Source: Nitratireductor arenosus (GTDB taxonomy: Bacteria; Pseudomonadota; Alphaproteobacteria; Rhizobiales; Rhizobiaceae). Taken from it: a stretch of 64,000 nucleotides of DNA. The position numbers and the translations under genes are program-made. This document shows positions 12,953-62,962 of the stretch, piece by piece. Position 1 is the first letter of the stretch, and the number at the start of each line of letters is the position of its first letter. Under the pieces are notes generated by a model that was not told where the DNA came from, searched no databases, and saw only the letters and a program-made list of their open reading frames with translations. Location of the stretch: positions 310,001-374,000 of the forward strand of contig NZ_WPHG01000001.1 in assembly GCF_009742725.1 (NCBI RefSeq). The letters run 5' to 3'.

Positions 12953-14542
12953 ATGTCGGAAGAACTCAAATATCTGAGCCATCGCGTCGCTGTCGGCAAA
13001 CTTAGCCGACGTGACTTTCTGGGCCGCGCCGCCGCGCTCGGCGTCACGGCATCCTTCGCCAATACGCTGCTTGGCGGCGCGGCAAAGGCCGCCGGTCCGC
13101 AGAAAGGCGGCATCATCAAGGCCGGCATGCAGGGCGGCGAGGCGACCAACAGTCTCGATCCGGCGAGCTTCCTGTCGCAGGTACCGTTCACCTTCGGCAA
13201 AAGCTGGGGCGAATATCTCGTCGCGCTGACGCCGGATGGCGGGCTCGAGAACCGTATCGCCGAGGAAGTCGGCGCGTCCGACGACGCCAAGGTGTGGACC
13301 TTCAAGATCCGCGACGGCATCGAGTTCCACAACGGCAAATCGGTCACGGCCGACGACGTGCTCGCCACGCTCGAGCGCCACTCCAACGAGGATTCCAAGT
13401 CCGGCGCGCTCGGCATCATGAAGGGCATTGAGTCCATGAAGGTCGACGGCAACGACGTCGTCGTCACGCTCAAGGAGGCCAATGCCGATCTGCCCTACTT
13501 GATGGCCGATTATCATTTGATCATCCAGCCGAACGGCGGCAAGGACAAGCCGGACGCCGGCATCTCGGCCGGTCCTTACAAGGTTACGGTCAACGAACCC
13601 GGCGTGCGCCATGGCGGCGAGCGGTTCGCCAATTACTGGCAAGGCGACAAGATGGGCTTCGCCGACCAGATCGAGATCATCGTCATCAACGACGCCACCG
13701 CGCGCACCGCCGCGATGCAGGGCGGCCAGGTGCACCTGATCAATCGCGTCGAGCCGAAGATCGTCGACCTGGTCAAGCGCGTGCCGGGCGTGACCATCCA
13801 GAACGTGTCGGGCCGGGGTCACTACGTCTTCATCATGCATTGCAACACAGCGCCCTTCGACAACAACGATTTGCGGATGGCGTTGAAATACGCGATGAAC
13901 CGCGAGGAAATGGTGGAGAAGATCCTGCGCGGCTACGGCTCGGTCGGCAATGATTTCCCGATCAACGCGGCCTATCCGCTGTTCTCCGACGATGTCGAGC
14001 AGCGTCCCTACGACCCGGACAAGGCCGCCTTTCATTTCAAGAAATCCGGCCATGACGGCCCGGTGCTGCTACGAACCTCCGACGTCGCCTTCCCCGGCGC
14101 GGTCGACGCCGCACAACTCTATCAACAGAGCTGCGCCAAGGCCGGCATCACCATCGATGTCAAGCGCGAGCCTGGCGACGGCTACTGGTCGGAGGTGTGG
14201 AACAAGCAACCCTTCTGCGAATCCTATTGGGGCGGCCGTCCGACGCAGGACCAGATGTATTCCACCGCCTACATCTCGACCGCAGACTGGAATGACACTC
14301 GCTTCCTGCGGCCGGAATTCGACAAGCTTATCATGGAAGCGCGCGCCCAGCTCGACGAGACCAAGCGCAAGGCCATGTATCGCGACGCCGCGGTCATGGT
14401 CCGCGACGAGGGCGGCCTGATCCTGCCGATGTTCAACGACTTCATCGACGCCTCGACCGACAAGATCGACGGCTGGGAACCCCACCCGGCGGCCGAACTG
14501 ATGGACGGCTACGCCCTTGCAAAGTGTTGGCTAACGGCCTGA
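12953..14542 (+). CDS. Dpp/Opp-type ABC importer, substrate-binding protein (Tat-exported)
   Basis: A 529-residue family 5 extracellular solute-binding protein. The N-terminus contains a twin-arginine signal, LSRRDFLGRAA (arginines 19 and 20), followed by a hydrophobic stretch ending in AAKAAG. The mature protein shows the SBP_bac_5 pattern: ATNSLDPASF, WTFKIRDGIEFHNGKSVTADD, and FDNNDLRMALKYAMNREEMV. It delivers a peptide-like or other cationic or amidic solute to the permeases encoded just downstream. Tat export of such proteins is common in rhizobia. Substrate cannot be deduced; the flanking CocE hydrolase and phosphodiesterase are the only hints. Confidence 0.92.
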   Translation: MSEELKYLSHRVAVGKLSRRDFLGRAAALGVTASFANTLLGGAAKAAGPQKGGIIKAGMQGGEATNSLDPASFLSQVPFTFGKSWGEYLVALTPDGGLENRIAEEVGASDDAKVWTFKIRDGIEFHNGKSVTADDVLATLERHSNEDSKSGALGIMKGIESMKVDGNDVVVTLKEANADLPYLMADYHLIIQPNGGKDKPDAGISAGPYKVTVNEPGVRHGGERFANYWQGDKMGFADQIEIIVINDATARTAAMQGGQVHLINRVEPKIVDLVKRVPGVTIQNVSGRGHYVFIMHCNTAPFDNNDLRMALKYAMNREEMVEKILRGYGSVGNDFPINAAYPLFSDDVEQRPYDPDKAAFHFKKSGHDGPVLLRTSDVAFPGAVDAAQLYQQSCAKAGITIDVKREPGDGYWSEVWNKQPFCESYWGGRPTQDQMYSTAYISTADWNDTRFLRPEFDKLIMEARAQLDETKRKAMYRDAAVMVRDEGGLILPMFNDFIDASTDKIDGWEPHPAAELMDGYALAKCWLTA

Positions 14543-37963: not shown

Positions 37964-39235
37964 TTACTGGGCAGCCGCGACCGCTTCCTTCACGTCGGCG
38001 TCGATACGGTCCAGCGCTTCGTCCAAGGACAGTTCACCGACGATCGCCTGGGTGATGCGGGTCACCGTGGCGTTCATGATCGCGCGGTTGTTCTTGTAAC
38101 CCTGGAACTGGAAGGCGACCGGCGAGAAACCGGCAAGCGCGTTGCCGAACGCGGTCAGGGCCGCCTTTTCGGCATCGGTGGCGTTTTCGTAGTCGATGCC
38201 CTTGACCTGCAGCGCCTGGTTGGCGGGAATGTTCTTGGTCTTGGCCAGCACCTTGGCCTGCACGTCCTCGCGCGCGATGAAATCGAGCAGCTTGCCGAGT
38301 TCCTCCGGCGCCTTGGTATGCTTGAAGGCGGCGATCGCCGCCCCACCGGGAATGCCTGTGCAACCGCCCGGACCGCACGGCGCCGGCACGGCCAGCCAGT
38401 CGAAGGCGTCACCGATATCGCGGCCGAAACGGCCGATCTGCCAGGAGCCGGACAGATACATCACCAGCGAACCGTTGGTAAACTCCTTGGCGGCATCCTG
38501 ATAGGTCGCGCCGCCTGCGCCGGCCCACACTTCCTTGGCCACGGTGCCGTCCTCATTCCAGGCAACGAACTGCTCGGAAAAGGCGCGGAACCCGTCATCG
38601 ACCGTGATCGGATCGCCATTTTCGTCGAACAGCGCCGCCCCGTAGGAGATCGCCGGTCCGGCGTAGCGGTGGCCCGAGCGGTCGAGCGCCATCGGATAGG
38701 GGGTCTGGGTCGCCTCGGCCACCTTTTTGGCCGCCGCCGCCCACTCCTCATAGGTCGCGCCCTCGCCCGGCATGTCGACGCCGGCCTGATCGAACAGCGT
38801 CTTGTTGACGAAGGGGCCGGTCGCGGTCTGCTGGTCCATGATGGCGTAGATGCCCTTGTCGTCCGGCCCGTTGACCCGGGTCCAGGCGAGCGTCTTGCCG
38901 TATTGCTCTTCCAGCTTGGCGGCGTCGGCCACATAGGGCGTCACGTCGAGCATATATTTGGCCAGTCCGCCGAGATCGGTCACGCGGGCGAGATCCGGGC
39001 CTTCGCCCGAGGCGAGTTGCAGCGGCAGGCTCTCCACGATCGACTTGTAGGGCACAACGTCGACGGCGACGGTCGTGCCGGGATTTTCGGCCTCGAACGC
39101 CTTGAACTGTTCGGCCCAGGCGTCGCATTCCACGCCGTCCTGATAGCAGGCGAAGCGCAGTTCGGCCGCCGAGGCGGACGACGCCGCGACAAGCGCCGCG
39201 AAGGCAATTCCGGAAAGCAGATGTCTCGATTTCAT
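37964..39235 (-). CDS. Sugar ABC importer, extracellular binding protein (family 1)
   Basis: The 423-residue protein has a clear Sec signal peptide (MKSRHLLSGIAFAALVAASS, cleavage after ASA near residue 23). The mature part follows the SBP_bac_1 pattern: DAWAEQFKAFEAENPGTTVA, FVNKTLFDQAGVDMPGEGAT, and GGAAIAAFKHTKAPEELGKL. Four cysteines (two near the mature N-terminus, two in PAPCGPGGCTGIPGG) could pair. It is the first gene of the sugar-import operon. A long AT-rich dyad lies 75-96 bases upstream. Ligand is unknown; an oligosaccharide cleaved by the GH31 enzyme is likely. Confidence 0.92.
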   Translation of the reverse strand: MKSRHLLSGIAFAALVAASSASAAELRFACYQDGVECDAWAEQFKAFEAENPGTTVAVDVVPYKSIVESLPLQLASGEGPDLARVTDLGGLAKYMLDVTPYVADAAKLEEQYGKTLAWTRVNGPDDKGIYAIMDQQTATGPFVNKTLFDQAGVDMPGEGATYEEWAAAAKKVAEATQTPYPMALDRSGHRYAGPAISYGAALFDENGDPITVDDGFRAFSEQFVAWNEDGTVAKEVWAGAGGATYQDAAKEFTNGSLVMYLSGSWQIGRFGRDIGDAFDWLAVPAPCGPGGCTGIPGGAAIAAFKHTKAPEELGKLLDFIAREDVQAKVLAKTKNIPANQALQVKGIDYENATDAEKAALTAFGNALAGFSPVAFQFQGYKNNRAIMNATVTRITQAIVGELSLDEALDRIDADVKEAVAAAQ

Positions 39236-49438: not shown

Positions 49439-49589
49439 TGTTTGCTCCTGTCCAGGTACGATAGCAATTCACGGCTTGGAACGGCTGTAAAGAGCCGTGC
49501 GCCGCTTTGCCGCCACCCACCCGGCGGCGGGCCCGCGAATACCCGGACATGCACCCTCGCCTGGACCAGTCAATTTCGGGTTTCGGCAC

Positions 49590-49618
49590 TTGTGGACCGA
49601 GCGCGCCCCAAACATATT
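49590..49618 (+). promoter_or_regulatory. Sigma-70 type promoter for a candidate small RNA
   Basis: TTGTGG (49590-49595) and CATATT (49613-49618) are spaced by exactly 17 bases, close to the alphaproteobacterial housekeeping pattern (CTTG... and a TAT-containing -10). Predicted initiation is at about 49625, at the base of the first RNA stem described in the next entry. Confidence 0.6.
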
Positions 49619-49624
49619 AGAAAA

Positions 49625-49736
49625 TGCTCATCGGGTCTTCACCTCCCGTTTCGGACCTATGAGCGTTCCCCTCTGGAGGTTTCGCCCAAAGGGCGCTTCC
49701 ATGCTTCGGGCCGGATCGCAAGATCCGGCCTTTTTT
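49625..49736 (+). ncRNA. Candidate trans-acting small RNA with CU-rich loop and terminator
   Basis: About 112 bases lie between a promoter and a strong intrinsic terminator, with no convincing reading frame. Stem 1 pairs GCTCAT (49626-49631) with ATGAGC (49659-49664) and GGTC (49634-49637) with GACC (49654-49657), exposing CACCTCCC (49640-49647), an anti-Shine-Dalgarno sequence. Stem 2 pairs CGCCC (49683-49687) with GGGCG (49691-49695). The terminator is stem 3. This three-hairpin plan with CU-rich loops recalls rhizobial alpha-r sRNAs that repress transport mRNAs. I cannot assign a family by eye. The region 49439-49589 before it and 49737-49846 after it show nothing else. Confidence 0.65.
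49709..49736 (+). terminator. Strong rho-independent terminator
   Basis: GGCCGGATC (49709-49717) and GATCCGGCC (49722-49730) form a perfect 9-base stem with a GCAA tetraloop, followed immediately by six T residues. This is the best intrinsic terminator in the window. It ends the candidate small RNA, since no protein gene reads into it from the left. Confidence 0.85.
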
Positions 49737-49846
49737 GTCCGCCCGAGACCGCGTCCCCTGCAACGGTCATGCACGCCCCGACGGGAGGGGTTGGCAGCCC
49801 GCATCATTTCCCGCACTTTTCATGGCGATCACGGGAGGGATCGACA

Positions 49847-50500
49847 ATGTTGCGGAATAGGCGGGAGGCGGGCCGTCTGCTCGCCGCCGAAATCTCGACG
49901 ATGGCACCGGATCGGCCGGTAGTGCTGGCCCTGCCGCGCGGCGGCGTTCCAGTCGCGGCGGAAATCGCCAGGGTCCTGAACGCCGCGCTCGACATTCTCG
50001 TCGTTCGCAAGGTCGGCGCTCCCGACAATCCGGAACTGGCGCTGGCCGCGCTGGTCGACGGCGACCCTCCCGATCTGGTGGCCAATGACGAAACCGTCGC
50101 GGCCTACGGGCTCGACCCCGCCGAGCTCGAAGCGCTTGCCCGACGCGAACGGCCGGAACTCGAGCGTCGGCGGCAGACCTATCGCGGCACGCGCGAACCG
50201 CTCGACGTCGCCGGCCGCACGGTGATCCTCGTCGATGACGGTATCGCCACCGGCACCACGGTAAAAGCCGCGCTCCGCGCCCTGGCCCGCCGCCGCCCGG
50301 CGCGTGTGATCCTGGCAGTTCCCGTCGCCCCGCCGGACGTGATCGCTGTGCTGGCCCGCGAAGCCGGCACGATCGTGTGTCCGCTACGGCCCGTTCCGTT
50401 CCGGGCCTTAAGCCTGCATTATCGCGATTTCCCGCAGCTTTCCGACCGCGAGGTCCTGGAGATTCTGGCCGAGGCCGGGCCGGCGGATACAGTGCGTTAG
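49847..50500 (+). CDS. Phosphoribosyltransferase-fold protein
   Basis: A 217-residue protein with the type I PRTase fold: [20 protein letters not shown] at the start, [20 protein letters not shown], and the PRPP-binding loop [20 protein letters not shown]. Homologues are often annotated only as phosphoribosyltransferase and are sometimes fused to dienelactone-hydrolase domains. The ATG at 49847 has GGGAGGG upstream. A longer frame starting at 49442 would run through the terminator and is rejected. Substrate unknown. It stands alone between the sRNA candidate and ctaB. Confidence 0.85.
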
Positions 50501-50537
50501 AGCTTTGCGAAACGTCGCATCCGCTGTCGGCATCTTC

Positions 50538-50551
50538 GTTGCAATTGCAAC
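50538..50551. promoter_or_regulatory. Perfect 14-base palindrome upstream of ctaB
   Basis: GTTGCAATTGCAAC reads identically on both strands and lies 41 bases ahead of the ctaB ATG and 38 bases after the phosphoribosyltransferase stop. The form suits a homodimeric regulator such as a LacI-type or similar protein; none is encoded nearby. Confidence 0.45.
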
Positions 50552-50592
50552 CGGAGATGGCTACGCTGGCTTGTCCATGGAAGGCGTCGCGC

Positions 50593-51528
50593 ATGCCGGT
50601 GAGCCACGAACCCCTCGGCGACGAACGCCTCCTGTTCGGGCGAGCGACGCTGAAAGATCTGTTGGCGCTGATCAAGCCGCGCGTCATGGCGCTTGCGGTC
50701 TTCACAGCCCTTGTCGGACTTCTCGTCGCACCGGGCGCGCTGCCCCCCGTTCAGGTGGTCGTTGCGATCTGCGCCATCGCCATCGGCGCCGGCGGCGCCG
50801 GCGCGCTCAACATGTGGTACGACGCCGACATCGACGCGGCCATGGCGCGCACCAGCCAGCGCCCCGTTCCACGCGGACGGATCGCACCGGCGGCCGCACT
50901 CGCGCTCGGCCTGTTTCTATCCGTCTGCGGAACCTTGCTTCTGGCCGCGGCCGCCAACGGGCTCGCAGCGATGCTGCTCGCCTTCACGATCTTTTTCTAT
51001 GCCGTCGTCTACACAATCTGGCTCAAGCGCCGAACGCCGCAGAATATCGTCATCGGCGGCGCGGCCGGGGCACTGCCGCCGGTGATCGGCTGGGCCGCCG
51101 CCACCGGTTCGGTCGGCGCAGACGCGGTTGTGCTGTTCATGATTATCTTCTTGTGGACCCCGCCGCATTTCTGGGCATTAGCCCTGCTGCGCGAGCATGA
51201 TTACGCGCGGGCCGGCATACCGATGATGCCGAACGTGGCGGGATCGGCATCCACCCGCCGGCAAATTTTTGCCTATGCGGTCGCCACCGCACTGGTCGGT
51301 GTGCTCCCCTGGCCACTCGGCTTTGCCGGCCCCGCGTTCGGGCTGGGCGCGGCCGTGCTCGGCGCCGGCTTCGTCCGTCAGGCATGGCTTACGCTCCAGC
51401 CCCGCCAGGCATCGGGCGCGACGCGGCCCGAACGCCGGTTGTTTGCCTACTCGATCCTCTACCTGTTCGCCTTGTTCGCATTGCTGCTCGCGGATACGCT
51501 CGTCATCCGCGCTCTGTTCGCCGGCTGA
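50593..51528 (+). CDS. ctaB: Heme o synthase (protoheme IX farnesyltransferase)
   Basis: A 311-residue UbiA-family prenyltransferase that adds a farnesyl group to heme B, making heme O, the precursor of heme A. Eight or nine membrane helices are visible, with [20 protein letters not shown] near the start and the active-site motif [20 protein letters not shown], plus [20 protein letters not shown]. The ATG at 50593 gives the typical short cytosolic N-terminus. It is close to, but not inside, the cytochrome oxidase operon; no ctaA or ctaG is present, so this may be a copy dedicated to the alternative oxidase. Confidence 0.93.
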
Positions 51529-55262: not shown

Positions 55263-57037
55263 GCCGGCCCCGCCGCTTGCGCCGTACGCGGCCCGGGATC
55301 GTTCTGGGCGATGAAGTCCTCCGGCGCGCCTGGCACGGAATAATCATAGGCCCAACGATAGACCACCGGCAGCGTATCGCCCCAATTGCCGTGCGGCGGC
55401 GGCGTGGTCGGCGTCTGCCATTCCAGCGATGTCGCCCGCCAGGGATTGCCGCCGGCGTCGCGGCCGAATTTCAGGCTCCAGAACAAATTGAACAGGAAAA
55501 CGAGCTGGGCAAAGCCGACGACCAGCGCGGCAATGGTGATGAACGCGTTCAGCGTATGCACGGATTCGGGGATGAAGGCGGTGCCGCTAATATCGGGATA
55601 GCGCCGCGGCACGCCGACCAGCCCGACATAATGCATCGGAAAGAAGATCGCGTAGGCGCCCAGAAACGTGACCCAGAAATGGAACTGGCCCATCGCCTCG
55701 TTGAGCATGCGACCGGTGATCTTCGGGTACCAGTGATAGATCGCGCCAAAAATCACCAGGATCGGCGCCACGCCCATGACCATATGGAAATGCGCGACCA
55801 CAAACATCGTATCGGACAAGGGCACGTCGACGACAACATTGCCGAGGAACAGACCGGTCAGCCCGCCATTGACGAAGGTGACGATGAAGGCGAGCGCAAA
55901 CAGCATCGGAAGGGTGAGATGGATGTCGCCGCGCCACAATGTCAGCACCCAGTTATAGACCTTGAGCGCGGTCGGAACGGCGATGATCAGCGTGGTGGTG
56001 GCGAAGAAGAAACCGAACCAGGGATGCATGCCCGATACATACATGTGGTGTGCCCACACGACGAAAGACAAGGCGCCGATGATGACGATCGCCCACACCA
56101 TCATCCGGTAGCCGAAGATATTCTTGCGGGCATGGGTACTGATCAGGTCGGAGACGATGCCGAAGGCAGGCAGCGCGACGATATAGACCTCCGGATGGCC
56201 AAAGAACCAGAACAGATGCTGGAACAGGATCGGGCTGCCGCCGCCATATTCGAGCTGCTGGCCGAGCTCGACCAGCGCCGGCATGAAGAAGCTGGTACCC
56301 AAAAGCCGGTCGAACAGCATCATCACGCAGGCCACGAACAGGGCCGGAAAGGCCAGAAGCGCCATCACGGTCGCGGTAAAGATGCCCCACACCGTCAGCG
56401 GCATGCGCATCAGCGTCATACCGCGCGCACGCCCCTGCAGCACGGTGACGACATAGTTCAGCCCGCCCATGGTGAAGCCGATGATGAACAGGATCAGCGA
56501 GACCAGCATCAAGATGATGCCCCAGGCCTGGCCACCCGGCGTGCCCGAAAGAATCGCCTGCGGCGGATAGAGCGTCCAGCCGGCGCCTGTCGGCCCGCCC
56601 GGCGCGAAAAAGCTCACAACCAGAACGAGCACGGCCAACAGGTAGATCCAGTAGGACAGCATGTTGGCATAGGGAAACACCATGTCGCGCGCGCCCACCA
56701 TCAGCGGGATTAAGTAATTGCCGAACCCGCCGAGAAACAGCGCCGTCAACAGGTAGATCACCATGATCATGCCGTGCATGGTGATGAACTGGTAATAGGC
56801 TTCCGGGGTGATGAAATCGAAGGTGCCGGGAAAACCGAGCTGCAGGCGCATCAGCCACGACAGCACGAGTGCGACCATGCCGATCGCGATCGCGGTGCCG
56901 GAATACTGGATGGCGATGACCTTGGCGTCCTGCGAAAAGACATAGGTCGTCCACCAGCTTTTCGGATGGTAGAGTTCGACATCGGCGACTTCCGCGGCCG
57001 GAACGGTATTGTCGGCATGGGGCGTGATATCGACCAT
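55259..57037 (-). CDS. coxN: Cytochrome c oxidase subunit I (alternative aa3 type)
   Basis: A 592-residue catalytic subunit with at least twelve helices. Heme and copper ligands appear in YQFITMHGMIMVIYLL, LFWFFGHPEVYIVALPAFGI (CuB histidine, D-channel glutamate and cross-linked tyrosine of the HPEVY motif), VVWAHHMYVSGMHPWF, and VVAHFHMVMGVAPIL. The HPEVY motif places it in the A1 group of proton-pumping oxidases. It overlaps the subunit III-like gene and follows subunit II by 76 bases. It reduces oxygen with electrons from cytochrome c. Confidence 0.95.
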   Translation of the reverse strand: MVDITPHADNTVPAAEVADVELYHPKSWWTTYVFSQDAKVIAIQYSGTAIAIGMVALVLSWLMRLQLGFPGTFDFITPEAYYQFITMHGMIMVIYLLTALFLGGFGNYLIPLMVGARDMVFPYANMLSYWIYLLAVLVLVVSFFAPGGPTGAGWTLYPPQAILSGTPGGQAWGIILMLVSLILFIIGFTMGGLNYVVTVLQGRARGMTLMRMPLTVWGIFTATVMALLAFPALFVACVMMLFDRLLGTSFFMPALVELGQQLEYGGGSPILFQHLFWFFGHPEVYIVALPAFGIVSDLISTHARKNIFGYRMMVWAIVIIGALSFVVWAHHMYVSGMHPWFGFFFATTTLIIAVPTALKVYNWVLTLWRGDIHLTLPMLFALAFIVTFVNGGLTGLFLGNVVVDVPLSDTMFVVAHFHMVMGVAPILVIFGAIYHWYPKITGRMLNEAMGQFHFWVTFLGAYAIFFPMHYVGLVGVPRRYPDISGTAFIPESVHTLNAFITIAALVVGFAQLVFLFNLFWSLKFGRDAGGNPWRATSLEWQTPTTPPPHGNWGDTLPVVYRWAYDYSVPGAPEDFIAQNDPGPRTAQAAGPA

Positions 57038-57113
57038 TCATCCACCTCCCGTCAGTGCGGCGCGCCCGTTTCCGGCGGGACCGACGCAAAATCCTATGCA
57101 GCCGCCTCCCCGC

Positions 57114-61969: not shown

Positions 61970-62962
61970 ATGACCTGTATTGCAAAGACCAAGGCCGCAC
62001 TCGCCGCGGCATTGCTGAGCGCCGGAACCATGCTCGGGGCCGGGATCGCCCACGCCGAAACGACTTTGAAGGTGGGGCACGTTTTCGCCGCCGACCACCC
62101 CTGGCAGATCGCGCTCGAGGGCCTGTCCAGGGACGTGGCCGCGGCAACCGACGGCGAAGTCGTCATCCAGGTCTATCCGAGTTCGCAGCTCGGCGGCGAC
62201 CGTGAAGTCGCCGAAGGGCTTCAGCTCGGTACCGTCGAGATGGGGTTGTTCGGCACCGGCGCGTTACAGGTGCTCGACAAGCGGCTGATCATCGAGGAAC
62301 TGCCCTATGCCTGGCCGACCCGCGAGAAGGCCTACGCCGCCGTCGACGGCGAGCTGGGCGAAGCGCTGGCCGAGATTCTGGCGACCAAGAACATCAATAC
62401 GCTCAGCTGGTGGGAAAGCGGCTATCGCCACATCACCAACTCGGCCCGCCCGATCGAAACGCCGGCGGACCTGAAGGGCATCAAGCTGCGCGTGCCCGAG
62501 GCCGAGCTGCGCCTCGACACCTTCCGCGAACTCGGCGCGCTGCCGACGCCGATGGCGTTTTCCGAGGTGTTCACCTCCCTGCAGCAGAACGTCGTCGACG
62601 GCCAGGAAAACCCGCTGGCGACGATCTACGCCTCGAAATTCTACGAAGTGCAGGAAAACCTGGCGCTGTCGGGCCATATCTGGGGCTCGGCGATCCTGAC
62701 GATTTCCAAGCAGGCCTGGGACAAGCTCACCGACGAGCAGAAGACCATCCTGCGCGAGAAGGCGGAAATCTGGAAGGAGAAGGAACGCGAGATGATCCGC
62801 AAGAGCGACGAGGAAGTGCTCGCCAAGCTCGAAGCCGAAGGCATGAAGGTCACGCGGCCGGACCCCGCCGCGTTCCAGGAAATGGTCCAGCCCGTTTGGG
62901 ACAAGTATGAGAGCGTCTTCGGCGAAGACCTCCTCGCAATCGTTCGTAAATACTCGAACTAA
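61970..62962 (+). CDS. TRAP transporter substrate-binding protein (DctP family)
   Basis: A 330-residue periplasmic protein with a Sec signal peptide (KTKAALAAALLSAGTMLGAG, cleavage after AHA near residue 29). The DctP fold is evident in LKVGHVFAADHPWQIALEGL, VYPSSQLGGDREVAEGLQLG, and the ligand-arginine region LKGIKLRVPEAELRLDTFRE, followed by AFSEVFTSLQQNVVDGQENP. It has a GGAGG ribosome site. Ligands of this family are mostly organic acids; the arginine supports a carboxylate, consistent with an N-acyl amino acid for the M20 enzyme. Confidence 0.93.
   Translation: MTCIAKTKAALAAALLSAGTMLGAGIAHAETTLKVGHVFAADHPWQIALEGLSRDVAAATDGEVVIQVYPSSQLGGDREVAEGLQLGTVEMGLFGTGALQVLDKRLIIEELPYAWPTREKAYAAVDGELGEALAEILATKNINTLSWWESGYRHITNSARPIETPADLKGIKLRVPEAELRLDTFRELGALPTPMAFSEVFTSLQQNVVDGQENPLATIYASKFYEVQENLALSGHIWGSAILTISKQAWDKLTDEQKTILREKAEIWKEKEREMIRKSDEEVLAKLEAEGMKVTRPDPAAFQEMVQPVWDKYESVFGEDLLAIVRKYSN

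Follow-up and report, generated by a model that had tools for sequence, protein, structure and literature searches.

A probable second AbcR (alpha-r15) small RNA in Nitratireductor arenosus, with a replaced upstream box and a drifted pairing loop

The window analysed here, a 64,000-nt stretch of the genome of Nitratireductor arenosus (contig NZ_WPHG01000001.1, positions 310,001 to 374,000 of the forward strand), contains at 49626-49736 on the plus strand a short segment which a preliminary description had taken for an unannotated riboregulator of the alpha-r/AbcR type. The question raised by this locus is which RNA is encoded here, what might control it, and what it might act on. The segment almost certainly encodes a riboregulator that belongs to the AbcR (alpha-r15) family, as the second, diverged copy in this genome; it is a newly found member of a known family, and the points of interest are its replaced control box and its drifted loop.

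The Rfam search that had been suggested at the outset returned the family ar15 (RF02345, AbcR1/AbcR2) end to end, covering 49626-49736(+) and model positions 1-112 of 112, with a score of 37.0 bits (E 4e-6 in the 411 nt searched, 1.2e-5 genome-wide). The length of approximately 111 nt is set by this match and agrees with the transcript of about 112 bases that had been predicted. The score is below the curated ar15 cut-off of 40 bits, which is a curation threshold and no biological trait, and a search of the window at the Rfam gathering cut-offs gave no match; in an open-threshold search, ar15 alone among the five matches listed at E <= 10 approaches its own cut-off. The whole genome (4.8 Mb) contains two ar15 matches at E <= 1, i.e., the window copy (copy B) and a copy at C8:38084-38199 (copy A, 41.9 bits). 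At E <= 0.01, ar15 was found in 92 of 121 family genomes versus none of 14 control genomes; the control genomes gave matches in three cases at E <= 0.1 and in eight at E <= 1, none of them above the cut-off. AbcR genes also occur in tandem arrays, with four consecutive ar15 matches in one genome (G126, C11:655844-656570) and three in another (G073, C1:771577-772107); a further genome (G017) has six matches in total.

The other copy in the N. arenosus genome is located directly downstream of LysR-type and thioredoxin-reductase-like genes and has a perfect LsrB box at -101 from GTTCC; excerpts of a published account (PMC7486931) place trxB, vtlR and abcR1 of A. tumefaciens in a like arrangement. 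The assignment of the window copy to the alpha-r/AbcR riboregulators is borne out by its ar15 match together with this published AbcR setting of the other copy. The window copy itself is not located beside trxB/lsrB, the location of AbcR1-type copies. All four genomes of the genus contain exactly two ar15 matches at E <= 0.1, and the second copies of the other three genomes all score above 40 bits (40.2 in G002 and 47.1 in G001, both at the same locus as the window copy, and 48.9 in G003, at another locus); the second copy is found at the same locus in three of the four. Its neighbours in N. arenosus (G000) and in G002 are LysE and phosphoribosyltransferase genes. In G001 it is flanked by a LysE gene and a cytochrome c gene, and the 16 kb examined there contain neither the phosphoribosyltransferase nor the UbiA-family gene (49847-51528 in the window). 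The second copy of G003 is located between a methyltransferase gene and an MFS gene. Judged by the phosphoribosyltransferase, the best named relative is a Mesorhizobium MAG (62% identity).

The segment 49622-49736 folds with a minimum free energy of -53 kcal/mol, compared to a mean of -35.4 for 200 shuffled sequences (z -5.28, none equal). The three stems, the exposed loop and the nine-base-pair terminator with six T residues of the preliminary description were all recovered in this analysis. Stem-loop 1 (49626-49664) contains the first anti-Shine-Dalgarno stretch, aSD1, as the loop CACCTCCC at 49640-49647 (CTCCTCCC in the other copy of this genome), with a predicted mean unpaired probability of 0.82. 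Compared to UCCUCCC and to motif M1 (CUCCCA), the core CCUCCC is retained and exposed, and its flanks are altered to A-CCUCCC-G, such that M1 reads CUCCCG. The second stretch, aSD2 (TTCCCCTC, 49666-49673), is located between stem-loops 1 and 2, with a predicted mean unpaired probability of 0.70; the letters at 49665-49673 are identical to the motif UUCCCCUC as given for S. meliloti in excerpts of PMC8844928, and to the M2 motif GUUCCC. Stem-loop 2 extends over 49674-49701 in the minimum-free-energy fold. The last of the three hairpins is a Rho-independent terminator with a T run, as in AbcR RNAs (49708-49736; inverted repeat of ten pairs at 49708-49731 with a perfect nine-pair core, and the six T present); it is the one terminator-like site within 49440-49850, versus 0.3 expected. 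The stretch 5' of the terminator is weakly A/U-rich (4/7 A/U by a by-eye count), and the U tail is present.

The four second copies of the genus share the loop core CCTCCC without exception, and GTTC(C/T)CCTCTGGAGGT varies little between them; aSD2 reads TTCCCCTC in three of them and TTCTCCTC, with one letter changed, in G002. The arms of stem 1 vary, yet they fold in each copy, and 3, 5, 0 and 5 of 200 shuffled sequences folded as well (G000, G002, G001 and G003, respectively); since the four copies are related, this is taken as support for stem 1 and not as a test of covariation. In the covariance analysis that had been suggested, RNAalifold with 14 family members recovered the terminator, whereas stem 1 was absent and aSD1 and the 5' side of stem 2 formed a pairing which, if real, would hide aSD1. 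The loss of stem 1 is put down to its misalignment by MAFFT, and the folds of single sequences were used instead.

A promoter-like element, CTTGTG-N17-ACATAT (49589-49617, plus strand), agrees in 8/12 letters with the published alphaproteobacterial PabcR1 consensus CTTGAC-N17-CTATAT, and the element of the other copy, CTTGCG-N17-ACATAT, likewise in 8/12; the best site has 8 or 9 of 12 letters at all seven copies tested, and the match is therefore non-discriminating. The element has the 17-base spacing of the preliminary description but is weaker than proposed there, and no promoter was found by an E. coli-type sigma-70 scan. With the RpoH1 consensus CTTGAA-N16-CCTATAT, the type of promoter used by S. 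meliloti AbcR2, the window copy agrees in 8/13 letters, and the second copies of G003 and G096 in 11/13 (seven copies tested). The segment had also been described as free of protein frames. Two open frames, 49442-50500 and 49497-49922, do extend over the sRNA, and neither looks coding, since the former is interrupted by stops in G002 and the latter differs evenly between G000 and G002 (31, 34 and 39 differences at codon positions 1, 2 and 3, about 140 each; 40 gap letters); the corresponding differences in the phosphoribosyltransferase gene next door are 15, 15 and 57 of 218 per codon position.

At the position where the other copy has its LsrB/VtlR box, the window copy has the box CTGGACCA (49561-49568, plus strand), a candidate activator site. 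The LsrB box (consensus GCAT-N3-TG-N3-T, approximately 100 nt 5' of GTTCC, as described in excerpts of PMC8844928) is absent upstream of all four second copies; its best match in the window has two of seven fixed letters wrong and is located at -79. The box CTGGACCA is the longest word common to the four upstream regions (at -104, -104, -104 and -110 from GTTCC); when the sequences of G001 and G003 were shuffled, no common word of seven or eight letters was obtained in any of 5000 trials. For a sample of 101 AbcR copies, chosen by the presence of GTTCCCCTCTGGAGG within two changes, with CTCCC before and a T run after, the LsrB box (-115 to -98) was found in 46 and CTGGACCA (-125 to -95) in six, and both together in none. 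Two of these six copies are outside the genus, in G131 (L146) and in G096 (L176), and two or more CTGGACCA were obtained in 1 of 2000 trials when the 93 copies outside the genus were shuffled; G131 had first come up when 394 genomes were searched for a pattern including CTGGACC (5/394 matched, four being those of the genus) and is therefore no independent draw, whereas G096 is independent. A stretch of 12 letters, TCTGGACCAACC, is common to the second copies of G096 and G003. A literature search on this box as a rhizobial promoter element gave an unrelated paper on cowpea and nothing else.

The position and conservation of CTGGACCA suggest that it may bind an activator other than LsrB, and copy B would then answer another signal than the canonical copy. 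In S. meliloti, LsrB is reported to be indispensable for AbcR1 (excerpts of PMC8844928), in conflict with the report of no lsrB effect on AbcR in strain 1021 (excerpts of PMC7486931), and for Brucella, the driver of the other AbcR copy was in 2017 "yet to be described", in the words of an excerpt of PMC5461406.

The first pairing loop of the window copy is CACCTCCCG (read in its context, TCACCTCCCG), and that of the canonical copy is CTCCTCCCA; the loop of G002 is TTACCTCCCG, and G001 and G003 retain CTCCTCCCA. Eight loop letters, UCACCUCC, are identical to part of the 3' end of the 16S rRNA. In a target prediction by complementarity, sites TGGGAGGA-N3-10-ATG precede solute-binding-protein genes in 9 of 23 cases in the genome, sites AGGGAGGA-N3-10-ATG in 14 of 32, and sites CGGGAGGT-N3-10-ATG, the complement of the window loop, in 1 of 11 (two of these sites were known beforehand, and a 12th, the sRNA's own complementary strand, was omitted). 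Specificity of the canonical 8-letter seed TGGGAGGA for binding-protein genes was tried and rejected, for the control AGGGAGGA is as rich (14/32 vs 9/23); the part that counts is GGGAGGA, which is common to both and exactly complementary to UCCUCCC, the core of the canonical AbcR loop. Pooled sites [T/A]GGGAGGA-N3-10-ATG precede binding-protein genes in 23/55 cases vs 1/11 for CGGGAGGT (Fisher one-sided p = 0.037, with small numbers and with motifs picked after some of the matches were known; the comparison is between these two kinds of site). The Pfam scan covers all but two of the 23 TGGGAGGA sites and all but one of the ten aSD2 sites (frames below 50 codons), and all but one of the 32 AGGGAGGA sites (L276, 70 codons); L252 is an ABC ATPase.

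The canonical loop fits the ribosome sites of many transporter genes, which the window copy thus fits one letter less well. Exact complements of aSD2 were found before ATG at ten sites, of which none precedes a binding-protein gene and one precedes a TRAP DctQ gene. Transporter genes, which the preliminary description had pointed to as possible targets, are present in the window (SBP_bac_5 at 12953, plus strand; SBP_bac_1 at 39235, minus strand; TRAP DctP at 61970, plus strand). The identity of aSD2 with the S. meliloti motif favours an action on transporter mRNAs, which the window copy may block.

The longest complement noticed for the sRNA loop is a perfect one of 10 nt to the cox1 ribosome site ACGGGAGGTG (57037-57060, leader on the minus strand), which belongs to the oxidase cluster next to the sRNA, at a distance of 7.4 kb. 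The 9-nt complement ACGGGAGGT is found before ATG at three gene starts genome-wide, two of them within the window, in a count made post hoc, after cox1. A search for coevolution of the loop with the cox1 ribosome site was negative, as cox1 keeps ACGGGAGGTG in G000, G002 and G001 (the three examined) though the loop of G001 is canonical, and the complement is therefore present whatever the loop. A wider reading would be that the second AbcR copies of the genus and of at least one further genus (G096) form one group under one activator at CTGGACCA, that the loops of G000 and G002 are shifted toward the ribosome's own anti-Shine-Dalgarno sequence (UCACCUCC in G000), and that the window copy tunes respiration and not uptake, since the shift leaves complements of 9-10 nt to very few gene starts, cox1 being one; we regard this reading as rather doubtful.

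The favoured reading, a functional second AbcR copy, has to be weighed against the possibility of an AbcR duplicate in decay, with its expression or action lost. The score below the cut-off, the changed M1, the weak promoter and the one changed letter of aSD2 in G002 could be signs of such a decay; however, three of the four genus genomes still have the copy at this locus, stem 1 folds despite its altered letters, the terminator is intact, and CTGGACCA is retained while much of the remaining upstream region has drifted, so that decay appears improbable. A reduced activity is another matter: AbcR2 of A. tumefaciens is weakly active, which has been connected with its lack of M1 (excerpts of PMC7486931), and with its changed M1 copy B may, on this precedent, act weakly.

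A cis-acting leader, transcribed from here and with the terminator as attenuator of the phosphoribosyltransferase gene at 49847, would be consistent with the common strand, with the distance of about 110 nt between terminator and gene, and with the ribosome site ACGGGAGG being complementary to the loop CCTCCCGT (an 8-nt complement in G000 and G002). We consider it very unlikely that copy B is such a leader, because in G001 the sRNA is retained here while the phosphoribosyltransferase gene is missing, and the second copy of G003 is located elsewhere; moreover, the body of the segment is an ar15 RNA.

Slightly less probable again is another anti-Shine-Dalgarno sRNA, SorX or NfeR1 (alpha-r14), that merely resembles AbcR. 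SorX is the next-best Rfam family and matches over the whole length, but with 19.7 bits versus a cut-off of 46.6 (E 0.024), whereas ar15 fits end to end, and ar14 is absent among the matches listed at E <= 10 (one weaker overlapping match of the ar15 clan is omitted there without a name). NfeR1 is alike in directing anti-Shine-Dalgarno motifs at transporter mRNAs (excerpts of PMC8844928) and differs in having three identical ones. That the hairpins arose by chance, or that a protein-coding stretch has been overlooked here, a view for which the two crossing frames could be adduced, can hardly be maintained in view of the fold, the ar15 match, the conservation and the lack of a codon-position bias.

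The window copy is, with high probability, a trans-acting second copy of AbcR (alpha-r15) that would repress translation by masking ribosome sites and be expressed from its own promoter by an activator other than LsrB. Like AbcR1/AbcR2 of S. meliloti, A. tumefaciens and B. abortus, it has the length, the three hairpins, the terminator, the anti-Shine-Dalgarno core in the first loop and GUUCCCCUC between stems 1 and 2, and the genome likewise contains two copies. Unlike these, it is not located beside lsrB/vtlR, has CTGGACCA instead of an LsrB box and the loop CACCTCCCG for CTCCTCCCA, and scores just below the Rfam cut-off. Second copies that escape LsrB/VtlR control have been reported too, namely AbcR2 of S. 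meliloti and AbcR1 of B. abortus (excerpts of PMC8844928 and PMC7486931).

In the mechanism proposed from these features, transcription would probably extend from about 49625 to 49736, starting from the sRNA's own promoter, and the RNA would probably be stabilised by Hfq. By base pairing of its two C-rich, single-stranded stretches (aSD1 in loop 1, aSD2 between stems 1 and 2) with ribosome-binding sites, it would reduce the translation of target mRNAs, and an activator reading CTGGACCA in place of LsrB would couple this repression to another signal. In related systems, according to published excerpts, two independent anti-Shine-Dalgarno motifs act on ribosome sites and silence transport and metabolic mRNAs in S. 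meliloti (PMC8844928), where AbcR1 is Hfq-dependent and acts on livK (PMC3712013), and two six-letter motifs, M1 and M2, are active in Brucella (PMC5461406).

The AbcR work cited here, as far as these excerpts represent it, is mainly on copies driven by LsrB/VtlR. A conserved box that replaces the LsrB box could serve as bait, in laboratory strains, for the question of what activates second AbcR copies, and with the changed loop nature provides a test of the extent to which the flanks of an anti-Shine-Dalgarno core set the target list.
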